Origin: a bacterium
GTDB taxonomy: Bacteria; Patescibacteriota; Minisyncoccia; Phycocordibacterales; UBA2100
Assembly (NCBI GenBank): GCA_030698935.1
Contig: JAUYLR010000014.1
Location: forward strand, 1-6,865
DNA length: 6,865 nt
Direction: 5' to 3'
The position numbers were made by a program, and so were the translations under genes. The notes beneath the pieces were generated by a model, which made no database searches, was not told the DNA's origin, and saw only the letters and a program-made list of their open reading frames with translations. Positions 1,352-6,865 of the stretch are shown here, piece by piece; positions within the stretch are counted from its first letter, which is position 1; every line of letters starts with the position of its first letter.

Positions 1352-1364
1352 AAACAGGTGCTAG

Positions 1365-1388
1365 CCCCGACGCGCGAAGCGGTCGGGG
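1365..1388. terminator. GC-rich hairpin between convergent genes, possible bidirectional terminator
   Basis: CCCCGAC at 1365-1371 pairs perfectly with GTCGGGG at 1382-1388 around a 10-base loop. It lies 13 bases after the PEGA stop and about 105 bases beyond the PheRS stop, between genes that converge. On the minus strand it is followed by a short T run (complement of 1350-1354); on the plus strand there is no clear T tract. A third partial copy of the arm (GTCGGGAC, 1399-1406) follows. It may be a terminator or just one of the palindromic repeats scattered in this genome. The rest of 1352-1492 shows no gene. Confidence 0.45.
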
Positions 1389-1492
1389 TGTGCGGAGCGT
1401 CGGGACTTCGGACATCTAACGGGATATGCTATTGAATTATGGAAGCGATAACGCAAAGATGATGAGACAACGAGGGAAGCGGGATGCCACCT

Positions 1493-2879: not shown

Positions 2880-5015
2880 ATGGCTGAAAAGAAAAGCAAA
2901 TCCGCCAAAACGTCCGCCTTAAAAAAGGCGGATTTGCCATCCTCATCCGCCGGAGGCGGACCCTCCTCCGGAGGGAAGAAGGCGGGTTCGGCGTATGACG
3001 CGAGCTCCATTACAGTCCTGGAAGGCCTTGAGGCAGTACGCCGGAGGCCCGGCATGTACATCGGAACGACGAGCTCCTCGGGGCTCCACCATCTCGTGTG
3101 GGAAGTTTTTGACAACTCGCGCGACGAGGCGATGGGCGGATTTGCGAATGACATTGAAATCGCACTTTTGCCGGATAACCGCGTCCGCGTTGCCGATAAC
3201 GGGCGCGGAATTCCTGTAGACATCCACCCGAAGACAAAAGTCTCAACGCTTGAGACGGTGATGACCATGCTCCACGCCGGAGGAAAATTCGGCGGAGACG
3301 GATACAAAGTTTCCGGCGGCTTGCACGGCGTCGGCGTTTCCGTCGTGAACGCACTTTCTTCGCACGTGCGCGCGGAGGTGCATCGCGACGGCGGACAGTA
3401 CATGCAGGAGTATAAAAATGGAGGCAAGCCGGTCGGCAAGGCAAAGAAAATCGGCACTTCAAAATTGCACGGAACTATAATCACGTATGAATCAGACGCC
3501 ACTATTTTCCCGGACCGTGAATTGAGTTGGGAAACGATTGTCTCGCACATGCGCCAGCAGGCGTACTTGGTGCGGGGTCTGCGCATCACTATTTTGGATT
3601 TGAGAAAGGCAGAGAAAATTAAAGATGAGGACGTTTTTTATGTCCGCGAATTAGGGGTTGATGCGCCATCCGTCACCTTCTATTTTGAAGGCGGCCTGCG
3701 CTCGCTCGTCTCGTTCCACAACAGACATCTTGAACCGGTACATAAAACCGTCTTCTATGTGGAAAAAGAGCAGGACGGCGTGCAGGTGGAAATCGCGCTC
3801 CAATATGTAGACGACATCACATCCCGAATATCCGCTTTTGCCAACAACATTTACAACAGCGAGGGCGGAATGCATATCACCGGTTTCAAATCGGCACTGA
3901 CGCGCACCCTGAACGCACAGATAAAGAACGGAAACGGCACAAAGGAAAGCGAAACATTCACCGGCGATGACGTGTTGGAAGGAATCACAGCTGTCGTTTC
4001 TGTAAAGCTCCGCGAAATTCAATTTGAGGGGCAAACAAAAGGAAAGCTCGGAAGCGTTGAGGCGCGCGGAGCGGTTGAGACAGTCTTCAGCGAGTCGTTC
4101 GGAATGTTCCTTGAGGAAAATCCCGACGAAGCGCGCGCGATTCTTGGAAAAGTTTCTCTCGCGATGAAGGCGCGCAAAGCGGCCAAAGCGGCTAAAGACA
4201 GCATTTTGCGCAAGGGCGCGTTGGACGGGATGACATTGCCGGGGAAACTCGCCGATTGCCAGACACGGCTCGCGGAGGAAGGAGAACTATTCATCGTGGA
4301 GGGAGATTCTGCCGGAGGTACCGCGAAAATGGGGCGCGACAGGCGCATTCAGGCCATCCTTCCGCTCCGCGGGAAAATCCTCAACATTGAGCGCGCGCGC
4401 ATTGATAAAATGCTTGCCTCGGAGCAAATCAAGAATCTTGTGGTTGCTTTGGGCACCGCAATAGGCGATGTATTCAATATAGAAAAACTCCGCTACCACA
4501 AAATAATTATCGCGACCGATGCCGACGTGGACGGCGCGCACATCCGCACGCTACTCCTCACGCTTTTCTACAGGCACTTCAAGCCATTAATTGACGGCGG
4601 ATTTATTTACATCGCACAGCCGCCGCTCTTTAAAATAAAAAAGGGGAAGGAGATTCACTACGCGTATTCCGACGAGGAGTTGGTAAAACTTGTAGGAAAA
4701 GATGCGCCATTAGAAGAAGTGGACAGTGAACAGTTGACAGATGACAGTGAAGAGAGTCCTGAAGACACTGAAAACTTAAAACTTAAAACTAAAAACTCAA
4801 AGATATCCGTACAGCGCTACAAAGGTCTGGGAGAAATGAATTCAGATGAATTGTGGGAGACCACGATGGACCCCGCTCGCAGAATTCTTAAGCTCGTGAC
4901 GATAGACGACGCACAGGATGCAGACATGGTGTTTGATATGTTGATGGGAACCGATGTCCCCGCGCGCAAATCTTTTATACAGTCGCACGCGAAGGAAGCC
5001 ACCCTCGATATATAA
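2880..5015 (+). CDS. gyrB: DNA gyrase subunit B
   Basis: ATPase subunit of DNA gyrase, which with GyrA introduces negative supercoils. Counting from ATG 2880 the protein has 711 residues. The GHKL ATPase domain shows the family start VLEGLEAVRRRPGMYIG (46-62), catalytic Glu75 in EVFDNSRDEA, DNGRGIP (106-112, Asp106 for adenine) and GGLHGVGVSVVNALS (146-160). The transducer QTK loop is at 385-387. The TOPRIM region has EGDSAGG (474-480), PLRGKILN (495-502) and the Mg-binding acidic triad in DADVDG (547-552). QRYKGLGEMN (645-654) and LWETTMDP mark GyrB rather than ParE. Two parts are extra: a Lys/Ser/Gly-rich N-terminal tail of about 40 residues before the usual YDASSITVLEG, and an acidic then Lys-rich insert at about 615-641. 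Both are encoded by repeat DNA. ATG 2880 is chosen over TTG 2850 because the promoter starts between them; no other in-frame ATG lies before the conserved RPGMYIG. Confidence 0.97.
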   Translation: MAEKKSKSAKTSALKKADLPSSSAGGGPSSGGKKAGSAYDASSITVLEGLEAVRRRPGMYIGTTSSSGLHHLVWEVFDNSRDEAMGGFANDIEIALLPDNRVRVADNGRGIPVDIHPKTKVSTLETVMTMLHAGGKFGGDGYKVSGGLHGVGVSVVNALSSHVRAEVHRDGGQYMQEYKNGGKPVGKAKKIGTSKLHGTIITYESDATIFPDRELSWETIVSHMRQQAYLVRGLRITILDLRKAEKIKDEDVFYVRELGVDAPSVTFYFEGGLRSLVSFHNRHLEPVHKTVFYVEKEQDGVQVEIALQYVDDITSRISAFANNIYNSEGGMHITGFKSALTRTLNAQIKNGNGTKESETFTGDDVLEGITAVVSVKLREIQFEGQTKGKLGSVEARGAVETVFSESFGMFLEENPDEARAILGKVSLAMKARKAAKAAKDSILRKGALDGMTLPGKLADCQTRLAEEGELFIVEGDSAGGTAKMGRDRRIQAILPLRGKILNIERARIDKMLASEQIKNLVVALGTAIGDVFNIEKLRYHKIIIATDADVDGAHIRTLLLTLFYRHFKPLIDGGFIYIAQPPLFKIKKGKEIHYAYSDEELVKLVGKDAPLEEVDSEQLTDDSEESPEDTENLKLKTKNSKISVQRYKGLGEMNSDELWETTMDPARRILKLVTIDDAQDADMVFDMLMGTDVPARKSFIQSHAKEATLDI
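2896..2975. repeat. Cluster of four palindromes inside the 5' end of gyrB
   Basis: Within 80 bases: an 11-base perfect inverted repeat, GCAAATCCGCC at 2896-2906 with its complement at 2927-2937; overlapping it, TCCGCCTT (2913-2920) with AAGGCGGA (2925-2932), loop AAAA; TCCGCC (2946-2951) with GGCGGA (2955-2960), loop GGA; and CCCTCC (2961-2966) with GGAGGG (2970-2975), loop TCC. The core TCCGCC/GGCGGA recurs in three of them. The cluster encodes about residues 6-32, the low-complexity tail that typical GyrB lacks. Confidence 0.85.
4723..4798. repeat. Two heptamer arrays (4 + 4 units) inside gyrB
   Basis: Four 7-base units of form ACAGNNN start at 4723, 4730, 4737 and 4744. After a 20-base spacer (4751-4770), four units of form AAAACTN start at 4771, 4778, 4785 and 4792. 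Because 7 is not a multiple of 3, the units are read in successive frames, yielding residues about 615-641, acidic first and Lys/Asn-rich after. The span coincides with the extra residues relative to typical GyrB. The arms are only weakly complementary, unlike the intergenic arrays. Confidence 0.85.
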
Positions 5016-5017
5016 AA

Positions 5018-5117
5018 CAGGTTTCAGGTTCTAGGTATCAGGTTTCAGACCGTTAAGAACAGAACCCCCTTTTAGGATTTTTTTGTGTGGAACCTGTAAC
5101 CTGACACCTGTAACCTT
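5018..5117. repeat. Inverted heptamer arrays between convergent gyrB and CARDB genes, possible terminator
   Basis: Left arm: four 7-base units of consensus CAGGTTN at 5018-5045, with a degenerate fifth. Right arm: four units of consensus TAACCTG at 5090-5117, the reverse complement. Positions 5027-5048 match the complement of 5094-5115 at 18 of 22 bases, so a long imperfect hairpin can form, with a 44-base spacer holding a run of seven T (5078-5084). It fills the gap between two converging genes, starting three bases after the gyrB stop and ending just before the CARDB stop, so it may end transcription from both sides. Confidence 0.75.
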
Positions 5118-5118
5118 T

Positions 5119-6201
5119 CTAGATACTGACGCTCGCCGTGTTGTTGTTCTCGCTCAATTCGTTCACCTGGTTTGCGGGGTCAACCGATACATGAAATGCC
5201 CCGCCGGGGACAGCGTTCTTGAAGCGGAGCATGTTCTCAATGCTTGCACCGCGTGCGAGCGAAACCTGTGCGGGCGAGGCATAGGCATAATCGGGATATA
5301 TCGGAAGCTGTGCGGTAAAGTACCACGTGCCGGTTGATGTGCCTCCAACATTTGAAATCAAGAAGCGCACGGCGACTAATTCTTCGGGCGATGTGGGCTC
5401 GCGGGAAACGATTTCTCCGCTGATTGGGTCAATAACGCCGTGCGACAAAATGCGCACGGAGAGGTCGGGTAGCCCCGGTACGCGCACCGCAAGGGTCTCT
5501 GCCTGCCCGCCTGCCTTCGCGCCTGACTGCGAGCTTCGCTCAGGCAGGCCGGCAGGCGCGGGCAGGTTACTGACTTTGGGTTCCGGTGCGGGAGAGATTT
5601 TTGCGGTAGTGGCCGGAGAGGCGTTCACTGCATTGATGATTGTCACGGATGCGTTGCCCTGCGCCCGCGATACGGGAGTGCCGGTAGCGGCAGGCGCGCT
5701 CGGAATAAAAATAATGGAAAGAGGAACATCAAGCGAAGATGTACCGGAAAGAACGGGCGTCACTTTGAATGTGTTGTCTTTGGAGGGCATGGTGTATCCG
5801 ACTCCGCACGGAATCTCGCTTTGCGTGCCGGCCGCGATGGTCGTCTTAAATTGGAATCCCTCGCGGCACTGATAGAGGAGCGCGTATGTTCCCGGGGCTT
5901 TAGGCGTGTATCTCCAGAGAATGGGGAACTCCTCGCCGGTGGGAATTTTTGTTTTTGGCACCGTCACCACTATTGATTTGGAGGAAGCGGAAAAGAGCCC
6001 CGTGAACCATGATTTAGACAACACACCCAAATTAAAGAGCCCCCAAAAGACTATCGCAATCAAGATGACTAATCCGGTGACCGCAAGAATGTTGGAAAAC
6101 AGTCCCGTCTTCGCCGTCTCTTTCCGCGGTTCTTTGGAAACCTCTTTCCGCACCTCAATTTTCTGTAACTCAATCTTCTGCACCTCAGTTTTATCAGCCA
6201 T
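5119..6201 (-). CDS. Membrane-anchored CARDB-domain surface protein
   Basis: A 360-residue protein. Residues 1-36 are a charged, presumably cytoplasmic tail with a 5-residue repeat (VQKIE, LQKIE, VRKEV, from residue 7). A membrane segment spans about 37-60 with no signal peptidase site evident. Outside, residues about 76-166 look like a beta-sandwich with Cys112 and Cys132, a possible disulfide. Residues about 167-245 are a Pro/Ala/Ser/Thr-rich linker. Residues 246-360 fit a CARDB domain (cell-adhesion-related domain found in bacteria): PDLSVRI at the start, VRFLISNVGG in the middle, and the diagnostic ending VDPANQVNELSENNNTA. CARDB domains are extracellular beta-sandwiches linked to adhesion or to binding other surface components; the partner here is unknown. 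The start at ATG 6201 is supported by a promoter that begins transcription almost on it. The gene converges on gyrB and diverges from the KH gene. The linker contains an in-frame palindromic repeat. Confidence 0.8.
   Translation of the reverse strand: MADKTEVQKIELQKIEVRKEVSKEPRKETAKTGLFSNILAVTGLVILIAIVFWGLFNLGVLSKSWFTGLFSASSKSIVVTVPKTKIPTGEEFPILWRYTPKAPGTYALLYQCREGFQFKTTIAAGTQSEIPCGVGYTMPSKDNTFKVTPVLSGTSSLDVPLSIIFIPSAPAATGTPVSRAQGNASVTIINAVNASPATTAKISPAPEPKVSNLPAPAGLPERSSQSGAKAGGQAETLAVRVPGLPDLSVRILSHGVIDPISGEIVSREPTSPEELVAVRFLISNVGGTSTGTWYFTAQLPIYPDYAYASPAQVSLARGASIENMLRFKNAVPGGAFHVSVDPANQVNELSENNNTASVSI
5502..5566. repeat. Nested palindrome inserted in the CARDB protein linker
   Basis: CCTGCCCGC (5502-5510) pairs with GCGGGCAGG (5558-5566); CTGCC (5511-5515) pairs with GGCAG (5551-5555); GCCTGA (5521-5526) pairs with TCAGGC (5540-5545); and GCGA (5529-5532) pairs with TCGC (5536-5539) at the tip. 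The whole forms one long interrupted hairpin. It encodes about residues 212-234 of the CARDB protein, inside the Pro/Ala-rich linker, and keeps the frame open. Confidence 0.75.
6151..6195. repeat. Three 15-base tandem units in the CARDB gene 5' end
   Basis: Three 15-base units begin at 6151, 6166 and 6181 and share the pattern (C/T)A(C/A)CTCA followed by a T-rich half. Read on the minus strand they encode the repeated pentapeptides of the cytoplasmic tail. The 15-base period keeps the frame, so the copy number could vary without breaking the gene. Confidence 0.65.
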
Positions 6202-6208
6202 GCCTGCG

Positions 6209-6236
6209 ATTGTTCCATATTACGGGCACTTGTCAA
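6209..6236 (-). promoter_or_regulatory. Promoter of the CARDB gene, apparently leaderless
   Basis: On the minus strand a perfect -35 TTGACA (complement of 6231-6236) is followed after 16 bases by AACAAT (complement of 6209-6214; 4 of 6 to the -10 consensus). Transcription would begin around 6202, at the ATG at 6201. If TAATAT slightly upstream serves as the -10 instead, the leader is still only about 10 bases, but its -35 would be poor. Confidence 0.5.
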
Positions 6237-6247
6237 TTAAACAGCCC

Positions 6248-6337
6248 GTAGCTTGCAGCTGGTAGCCGGTAGCAAATTCAGCTTGGAACACGATTGTTCC
6301 TCGGTGTATGGCTACGAGCTACAAGCTACTGGCTACA
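6248..6337. repeat. Inverted heptamer arrays with a central hairpin, between divergent genes
   Basis: Left arm: four 7-base units of consensus GTAGCNN starting at 6248, 6255, 6262 and 6269. Right arm: four units of consensus (A/G)GCTACN starting at 6310, 6317, 6324 and 6331. Positions 6245-6267 match the complement of 6310-6332 at 20 of 23 bases. The 34-base spacer contains a perfect small hairpin, GGAACA (6285-6290) with TGTTCC (6295-6300) around CGAT. It lies between the CARDB promoter and the KH gene promoter, overlapping neither. Confidence 0.8.
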
Positions 6338-6349
6338 AGCTCTCGCACG

Positions 6350-6378
6350 TTGACCCCCCAGCGCTTTTCTTGTATCCT
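6350..6378 (+). promoter_or_regulatory. Promoter of the KH-domain gene
   Basis: TTGACC at 6350-6355 (5 of 6 to the -35 consensus), a 17-base gap, and TATCCT at 6373-6378 (4 of 6 to the -10 consensus). Transcription would start near 6385, leaving a leader of about 25 bases with AAGAAG at 6399-6404, five bases before the ATG at 6410. Confidence 0.55.
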
Positions 6379-6409
6379 CCACCGTATTACAAGACCGTAA
6401 GAAGATGGC

Positions 6410-6766
6410 ATGACAGATATGGAACAAGACCAGCAGTTTTTGGAGTATGTGGTTAAGGCATTGGCGGATTTTCCGGACGACGTAAAAATTACCCGCACAG
6501 TTGACGAGATGGGCGTCTTGCTCGTGCTTTCCGTCAACAAGGACGACATGGGAAAGATTATCGGGCGTTCCGGTCAGACTGCGAAAGCGATACGGACGGT
6601 TTTGCGCGTCGTAGGAATGAAGAATGACGCGCGGGTAAATTTGAAAATAGAAGAGCCGGAAGGAAGCGAGCGGGCACCGCGCGAAGGTATGAGCGCGAAA
6701 CCGGCCGAACCGTACGTCCGCGACACGACTGTTGAGGATGTGATTAGGGATTTGAAAGCGGAGTAG
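6410..6766 (+). CDS. khpA: KhpA-like KH-domain RNA-binding protein
   Basis: A 118-residue cytoplasmic protein. Residues about 8-81 match the small single-KH-domain family KhpA/YlqC: helix FLEYVVKALADFPDDVKI, strand VLLVLSVNKDDMGKIIG, then the RNA-gripping GxxG loop as GRSG (52-55), followed by QTAKAIRTVLRVV and the strand VNLKIEE. In Firmicutes KhpA pairs with KhpB (Jag) and binds many RNAs, affecting cell division and envelope growth; whether that holds here is unknown. The family is usually about 75-80 residues; this one has an extra charged tail of about 35 residues (SERAPREG to the end) that I do not recognise. The start is ATG 6410, which has AAGAAG five bases upstream; ATG 6419 is an alternative. 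A three-codon frame ATG-GCA-TGA (6405-6413) overlaps the start. It is transcribed away from the CARDB gene, and the stop is followed after two bases by a nonamer repeat. Confidence 0.85.
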   Translation: MTDMEQDQQFLEYVVKALADFPDDVKITRTVDEMGVLLVLSVNKDDMGKIIGRSGQTAKAIRTVLRVVGMKNDARVNLKIEEPEGSERAPREGMSAKPAEPYVRDTTVEDVIRDLKAE

Positions 6767-6768
6767 CG

Positions 6769-6859
6769 TTGTAAATGTTGTAGCTGTTGTAAATGTTGTA
6801 AACGCCAAAAAACGAGGCGATTTGAACGATTAGAACGTATAGAACGTTTACAACATATA
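6769..6859. repeat. Inverted nonamer arrays after the KH gene, possible terminator
   Basis: Left arm: four 9-base units of consensus TTGTAAATG starting at 6769, 6778, 6787 and 6796. Right arm: four units of consensus GAACGTNTA starting at 6824, 6833, 6842 and 6851 (the last diverged). ATGTTGTAAACG at 6793-6804 is perfectly complementary to 6845-6856, a 12-base stem. The spacer is 19 bases. The element starts two bases after the KH stop and could act as its terminator, though no T tract follows inside the window. Confidence 0.8.
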
Positions 6860-6865
6860 TGCTCC

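Follow-up and report, generated by a model that had tools for sequence, protein, structure and literature searches.

Paired heptamer arrays in a Phycocordibacterales contig share the anatomy of the arms that surround PF05635 genes

Results

Four paired-array elements lie in and between the genes of the window

The stretch analysed here, called the window, is the whole 6865-base contig JAUYLR010000014.1 (G000:C13) of a bacterium from the Phycocordibacterales (UBA2100). It belongs to the draft genome G000, which comprises 678,695 bases in 111 contigs and is 69% complete. The window carries four elements, each made of two tandem arrays, in and around gyrB and the genes for a CARDB-domain protein and a KH-domain protein (Table 1). 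Three of the elements have 7-base units and the fourth has 9-base units. We find the anatomy of the 7-base pairs again in the inverted arms that flank genes of PF05635, the four-helix-bundle family named 23S_rRNA_IVP or S23 (hereafter IVP). The 7-base pairs of the window are most likely gene-less copies of IVP mobile elements, comparable to miniature inverted-repeat transposable elements (MITEs).

Table 1. Repeat elements and genes of the window.
Feature	Position	Strand	Description
Element 1, left arm	4718..4754	+	Inside gyrB; AG at 7-base pitch, run of six; unit AGTGAAC-like
Element 1, right arm	4767..4802	+	Inside gyrB; CT at 7-base pitch, run of five from 4768; unit AAAACTT-like
Element 2, left arm	5018..5048	+	Unit CAGGTTN; directly 3' of the gyrB stop codon; AG run of five from 5019
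Element 2, right arm	5087..5117	+	Unit AACCTGN; CT run of four from 5094; abuts the stop codon of ORF 5119-6201(-)
Element 3, left arm	6243..6275	+	Unit GTAGCNN; between divergent genes; AG run of five from 6243
Element 3, right arm	6308..6342	+	Unit GCTACNN; CT run of five from 6312
Element 4	6763..6860	+	9-base arrays GTTGTAAAT / GAACGTATA; inverted arms 3' of the KH gene; no AG rule
gyrB	2880..5015	+	Pfam; hosts element 1 in the variable linker preceding the QRYKGLGEMN motif
CARDB-domain protein	5119..6201	-	Pfam; convergent with gyrB; element 2 occupies the gap between both stop codons
KH-domain protein (KhpA/KhpB family)	6410..6766	+	Pfam; between elements 3 and 4

Performing a lag scan with 200 local Markov shuffles as the background, we detected six lag-7 arrays in the window (starts 4718, 4767, 5018, 5088, 6243 and 6309) against a shuffle mean of 0.085 and a maximum of 1. 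At lag 9, intergenic arrays start at 6767 and 6818, and a further, coding array starts at 4161 (expected mean 0.01). An original prediction on this DNA had described four elements of one plan (four units, a spacer, four more units) with divergent units, the second arm being largely complementary to the first in the three intergenic elements. The shared architecture was borne out and so was the complementarity, as the arms of the intergenic elements fold together with shuffle z values of -2.98 (5014-5118), -5.41 (6240-6342) and -4.86 (6763-6860). The gyrB insert (4715-4806) showed no fold between its arms (z +0.24). What had to be revised is the count and the uniformity: the arms hold about five AG or CT steps, and inverted 7-base arrays with AG on the left and CT on the right are present in three of the four elements, the 9-base element being of another type. 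All four window elements are gene-less, with no PF05635 gene between their arms. An Rfam search of the window matched no known RNA, rRNA included.

Heptamer arrays are abundant in the genome and in its relatives

The scan of G000 covered 40 of the 111 contigs, that is 217 kb of non-N sequence (five of those 40 are wholly N), and returned 70 lag-7 arrays against 3.0 in shuffles. Two relatives from the genus gave 61 arrays against 4.2 (G023, 299 kb) and 16 against 0.8 (G018, 89 kb). The excess at lag 6 was smaller (20 against 8.8 in G000; 18 against 10.0 and 11 against 1.6 in the two relatives). Lag 9 gave seven arrays in G000, part of them coding, and none in shuffles. Lags 8 and 10-14 yielded 0 to 2 arrays each in the scanned genomes, with no comparable excess. 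The lags put forward in the original prediction, 7 and 9, both exceed shuffled sequence genome-wide. Only 25 of 147 array midpoints fall inside open reading frames (ORFs) of at least 120 aa, although ORF coverage is 0.821.

We checked each array for a complementary partner at most 700 bases away with a local score of at least 13, using reversed and complemented arrays as controls. Such a partner, also expected by the original prediction, was found for 52 of the 70 arrays in G000, compared with 4/70 and 9/70 for the reversed and complemented controls; the relatives gave weaker results (see Discussion). The gaps between paired arms are mostly 21-52 bases, and a second group spans about 370-540 bases, where several of the long interiors bear genes. 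Pairs of unlike units flanking normal genes were excluded from the element count; L065, with an ORF judged YebC-like by eye, is an example.

Heptamer arms surround IVP genes

The PF05635 search of G000 returned six genes. Heptamer arrays enclose all five intact genes, the unit being different for each, and Pfam confirmed three of these five; the inverted downstream array of the C25 gene passes a laxer threshold only. The sixth gene has an in-frame stop and is without an array. The units TAGCGNN, GTATCGT and GAAATCC, found in some of the G000 IVP arms, recur in gene-less pairs elsewhere in G000.

The arrangement extends far beyond this genome. PF05635 matches occurred in 35 of 52 genomes of the genus, and the 35 IVP loci read carried arrays on both sides in 18 cases, on one side in 11 and on none in 6. 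In the same genus, 37 of 58 IVP sides had arrays compared with 4 of 58 gyrB sides. Among named genomes of many other phyla, for which the best 80 of 585 confirmed loci were taken, 32 loci had arrays on both sides, 26 on one and 22 on none. Counted by sides, this makes 90/160 at IVP genes and 5/160 at control sides placed at a distance of 500 bases, some of them extending past the ends of short contigs. Some of these loci have 8-base units (21/160 sides, 0/160 controls), and at one locus both arms consist of 9-base units. Viral contigs (n = 33, some of them near-duplicates) gave 21 loci with arrays on both sides, 8 on one and 4 on none, or 50 of 66 sides. A tblastn search of a plasmid collection found 33 records, mostly cyanobacterial; 12 were read, and with the laxer threshold each of these 12 has 7- or 8-base arrays at its two ends, near-copies (L289 and L290; L291 and L292) being included. 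No IVP match was found in phage records with the single query used, and Rfam matched rRNA at 0 of 40 IVP loci (one tRNA was seen).

The density of arrays differs in the same direction between genomes with and without IVP. The first 20 kb of chosen contigs were compared, 200 kb for six IVP-positive and 200 kb for six IVP-negative genomes: the former had 29 arrays and 19 five-step runs, the latter 4 and 2. In this comparison gene-less arms accompany IVP genes, G018 being an exception (see Discussion).

GIY-YIG was considered as the mobilising enzyme, as a GIY-YIG gene of G000 lies between CTAGCTT arms at L129 (L015 1794-2335). We dropped this candidate because L129 is the sole case with both arms among 33 GIY-YIG loci, and only one further locus has an array on one side.

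The IVP genes also bring a reverse transcriptase into consideration. In that case, the elements would be mobilised as RNA, IVP would act like the Avd protein of diversity-generating retroelements, and the arms or the stem would serve as priming structures. PF05635 proteins do resemble Avd, according to the portion of PMC10053308 consulted, and L123 has a sub-threshold bAvd match. Weak PF05635 matches lie about 1 kb or less from reverse transcriptase genes in G042:C30, G020:C64, G011:C15 and G065:C17; these four are probably Avd genes of diversity-generating retroelements. However, no reverse transcriptase was found in G000, and IVP genes occur in 13 of 18 reverse transcriptase-positive and in 22 of 34 negative genomes of the genus (hand count), showing no association. 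We consider this route unlikely.

The arms share an oriented AG and a preferred count of five

Comparing the arms of IVP loci in the orientation of the coding strand, we find an AG common to the upstream arm and the reverse-complemented downstream arm (mean frequencies 0.77 and 0.80). The next-best position of the unit is the T preceding it (0.56), and the remaining positions are much lower. Of the 102 upstream arms, 75 conserve the AG and 8 a CT; the numbers for the 99 downstream arms are 76 and 14. The three 7-base units of the window share the oriented AG as well. The original prediction had taken the unit sequences to be unrelated and free to vary; neither description holds for a unit in which AG is common and oriented.

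Next to its orientation, the AG has a preferred number. Over 595 kb from three genomes, made up of the 69 stretches out of 80 that were not masked, AG or CT runs at 7-base pitch numbered 54 with four steps, 71 with five, 7 with six, 1 with seven and 2 with eight. The means of 20 shuffles were 11.1, 0.4 and 0.05 for four, five and six steps, respectively, and pitches of 5, 6 and 8-11 gave no peak comparable to that of pitch 7. Among 60 IVP arms of the genus, the count of steps is exactly five in 35; a single arm reaches six, two stop at four and the remaining 22 have fewer. In the 160 arms from other phyla, five is the mode above background (53 arms, with 17 at four and 13 at six), and the tail is longer. 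Taking the IVP flanks by side (143 each), exactly five steps were counted at 48 upstream and 58 downstream flanks. Given these counts in the window and in IVP arms, the four units of the original prediction usually correspond to five anchors.

Five is also the number of chains in each of the two solved IVP relatives found, 2gsc and 2rld. The Xanthomonas S23p protein is described as a toroidal homopentamer in the part of PMC4990558 consulted, and a structure paper listed among the references of PMC10053308 names five four-helix bundles in its title.

The unit covaries with the protein

We compared IVP protein identity with unit similarity over 105 loci, which remained from 115 after dropping proteins more than 85% identical, and used 500 permutations as the background. 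The two were correlated (rho 0.373; permutation s.d. 0.048, maximum 0.161). The correlation persisted among protein pairs below 50% identity (rho 0.337; permutation maximum 0.139) and after correction for GC difference (rho still 0.373; permutation maximum 0.138), and it reached 0.645 in the 28 loci of the genus alone (permutation maximum 0.414). From this covariation, gene and arms evidently travel as one unit. It is also compatible with recognition of the unit by the protein.

Sites differ between strains and are found filled and empty

We compared 22 orthologous sites of the genus by hand. Six carry the same unit in both genomes, ten carry different units and six have no array in the other genome. 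Three different units lie 3' of the gyrB stop codon in three strains, and one IVP element of G000 occupies the site of a gene-less pair with another unit in G018. A difference of units between strains at one locus, which the original prediction had named as a check, was thus seen at ten of the 22 sites. Since arrays at one site differ in their units, and may be IVP-bearing in one strain and gene-less in another, we read them as repeated insertions into shared permissive gaps. One heptamer pair is kept in both strains (L031 2336-2417 and L102 4376-4452); it lies within a stretch bordered by strongly conserved sequence that, to the eye, resembles a structured-RNA gene.

Cyanobacterial plasmids allowed us to compare filled with empty sites. 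At site A, the element is present in Trichormus variabilis and Scytonema and absent in Nostoc linckia NIES-25. The flanks of the filled and empty sites are 98.8% identical over the aligned 72%. GTAAT, a 5-base duplication, flanks the element on both sides and is in single copy at the empty site. At the same site, Brasilonema has a gene-less pair of arms and Nostoc C052 has a decayed copy. Site E occurs in both states, filled on one plasmid and empty on another from a single Nostoc strain, and shows a 5-base duplication only on the assumption of a 1-base deletion. Plasmid insertions lie at gene junctions, cas6-cas4, cas10-cmr3 and conjugation genes among them. Judging from these sequence comparisons, we conclude that IVP elements are mobile. 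Of the two origins offered in the original prediction, the mobile element defined by structure is the one that fits, given IVP genes between such arms and sites that are filled or empty.

Two further observations concern these plasmids. L294, L296 and L300 are IVP elements within CRISPR-Cas operons (cas6-cas4 twice, cas10-cmr3 once). In L307 (Nostoc sp. C057 p057_H), the gap of site C holds AAAATTC-type arms around a non-IVP interior, where relatives have an IVP element (by eye).

The other origin was slippage with arm-templated correction. According to it, the arrays would be simple-sequence repeats produced by replication slippage in hairpin-prone intergenic DNA, the second arm being corrected from the first, with no protein or mobile element involved. 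Long arrays of varying copy number are known at L229 and L300, and slippage does alter the copy number in some of them (L291 compared with L292); the mostly intergenic position of the arrays would suit it too. But slippage does not account for a single strongly preferred unit length, for an oriented AG whose runs fall sharply after five, for the presence of arrays beside IVP genes rather than beside gyrB or GIY-YIG genes, for a unit that covaries with a protein, or for filled and empty sites. Moreover, the variable bases of the arms often disagree and the gyrB insert is unfolded, which argues against correction of one arm by the other. As the main generator of the arrays, slippage is improbable. 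For the same two reasons, we rejected strict complementarity as the defining feature of the elements.

We give the same low weight to an adaptive role for the host, in which the arms would be terminators or RNase III-processed stems kept for regulation, and IVP genes would merely adjoin them. Two window elements directly follow stop codons and fold well, and the Coxiella rRNA intervening sequence is excised by RNase III, as stated in the part of PMC4990558 seen. On the other hand, element 3 lies between divergent genes, the element in gyrB does not fold, and a terminator requires neither a 7-base pitch nor a count of five. Arms of this kind also come with the IVP gene and are missing at the empty site. 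Movement of the hairpins by a Y1 (HUH) transposase, as with repetitive extragenic palindromes (REP) and REP-associated tyrosine transposases (RAYT), is very improbable: many short palindromic intergenic elements are present, as in REP systems, but PF01797 had no matches in the 69% complete G000, the only genome searched for Y1, and the arms surround IVP.

Elements of other types

Further elements of other types touch the window. The 9-base family (GTTGTAAAT / GAACGATTA type) comprises window 6763-6860, a related pair at L071 759-858 and L086 10619-10676, and the contig of the window stops directly behind its copy. The gyrB linker that hosts element 1 holds another insert in relatives (L034, L035, L037 and L043), coding for a PTPEGVGVPTSDE.RSVGK-like peptide; in two of them the insert is a GTCGGGG-type palindrome. 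It seems that the gyrB linker accepts palindromic elements in frame. By blast, a GC-rich palindromic stretch that follows ORF 530-1351 in the window (1361-1414) is similar to a portion of the insert in the gyrB linker of G018.

Discussion

The three 7-base pairs of the window are built like the inverted arms around IVP genes, and we prefer to read them as gene-less offspring of such elements. How the protein would read the arms can be modelled on the trp RNA-binding attenuation protein (TRAP), a ring whose subunits each read one NAG triplet, the triplets being regularly spaced. By this analogy, the IVP protein, presumably a homopentamer like its solved relatives, would read an arm with one AG-headed heptamer per subunit; one step per subunit would fix the count at five, and the remaining bases of the unit would drift together with the IVP protein. 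Once bound at both ends, IVP might mark the element to be mobilised. The pairs of the window and other gene-less ones would then move in trans through an IVP of matching specificity. Among IVP arms of the genus, the closest to element 1 (left arm) is L160 and the closest to element 2 is L147; they are similar, though not decisive.

A wider proposal, which we hold to be evenly balanced between true and false, is that these are pan-bacterial minimal mobile elements. A non-enzymatic pentameric IVP ring would read the ends as a counted code of five AG heptamers. Protein and unit would co-evolve into many mutually exclusive specificities. Cyanobacterial short tandemly repeated repetitive (STRR) sequences, the heptamer pairs of Xanthomonas, rRNA intervening sequences and intergenic hairpins from bacteria of the candidate phyla radiation (CPR) would be members or gene-less offspring of this system.

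Several observations weigh against the preferred reading. About a quarter of IVP arms lack the AG (L124, L127, L128 and L159, for example), and outside the genus arms may have from six to more than a dozen AG steps. The paired arrays of the three genomes are less cleanly oriented, with AG in 18 and CT in 10 of 39 left arms, and CT in 20 and AG in 5 of 34 right arms. Pairing is weaker in the relatives, at 19/61 in G023 (controls 3 and 6) and 2/16 in G018 (controls 0 and 1); the draft genome G018 has its 16 arrays in 89 kb, yet no IVP was found in it. The 9-base element falls outside the AG rule and is a separate family from the 7-base elements. For the window itself, no IVP gene with its own units (CAGGTTN, GTAGCNN, ACAGTGA) was found in the 69% complete G000. 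Some loci from other phyla match the window units as well as or better than L147 and L160 do, and GTAGCNN of element 3 is without a single best IVP partner. Control sides were not empty in viral contigs (9/66), and the upstream array of plasmid locus L295 is wrongly oriented. Shared descent of gene and arms accounts for part of the covariation. Finally, a clean target duplication was seen at one of seven filled/empty sites (A), sites B, C, D, E2 and F being without one.

The findings offer one explanation for several heptamer repeats that were reported separately. They also place PF05635 in a biological context; this protein family is widespread, of unknown function and represented by solved pentameric structures. 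The nature and movement of rRNA intervening sequences and STRRs become directly testable. If a ring indeed counts five repeats while its specificity drifts with the unit, this would add a new principle to how the ends of mobile DNA are recognised, and nature would hold a set of matched protein/repeat pairs.

Among known systems, TRAP differs from the IVP arms described here in having eleven subunits and spacers of 2-3 bases, and in being a regulator. REP/RAYT systems and MITEs combine an autonomous gene between palindromic ends with many gene-less copies, and gene-bearing and gene-less copies likewise occur together here. Unlike REP/RAYT, we found no Y1 transposase in G000, and the end signal is a pitch with an AG instead of a fixed sequence.

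Cyanobacterial STRRs are tandem heptamers with many different units. They resemble the intergenic tandem heptamers described here, and 7- or 8-base arrays are present at 12 of 12 cyanobacterial plasmid IVP loci read. A literature search limited to open-licence PMC articles found no link of STRRs to four-helix-bundle genes; only plasmid loci were compared here. The same open-licence search, a weak negative, found no general link of heptamer arrays to PF05635 genes. In Xanthomonas, 70 and 75 convergent inverted heptamer pairs are reported from two genomes in the part of PMC4692102 consulted, so that paired heptamer arms were already on record, contrary to the original prediction. Like the Xanthomonas and Nostoc heptamer repeats covered in that text, our arrays are intergenic. 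The TAACTGA repeats of Beggiatoaceae are intergenic heptamers too, some lying in ORFs, and a repeat-binding protein has been suggested to be a mobile element (PMC4679880); they differ by having a single unit and one inverted repeat, and the protein is not named in the text consulted.

Also close are rRNA intervening sequences with an S23p/IVP ORF, such as the 23S rRNA intervening sequence of Coxiella. The portion of PMC4990558 consulted describes an S23p ORF in an element that is called selfish and is linked to inverted repeats, and tandem heptameric repeats of strain-variable number precede the S23p start codon. In the genus, in other phyla and on plasmids, though not in the window itself, we likewise find a PF05635/S23p ORF between inverted arms. 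Unlike the rRNA intervening sequences, the elements described here stand outside rRNA, and most arrays of G000 are gene-less. Relative to the rRNA intervening sequence, the rule of five AG steps, the orientation of the AG and the way in which unit and protein covary are, as far as we are aware, new.

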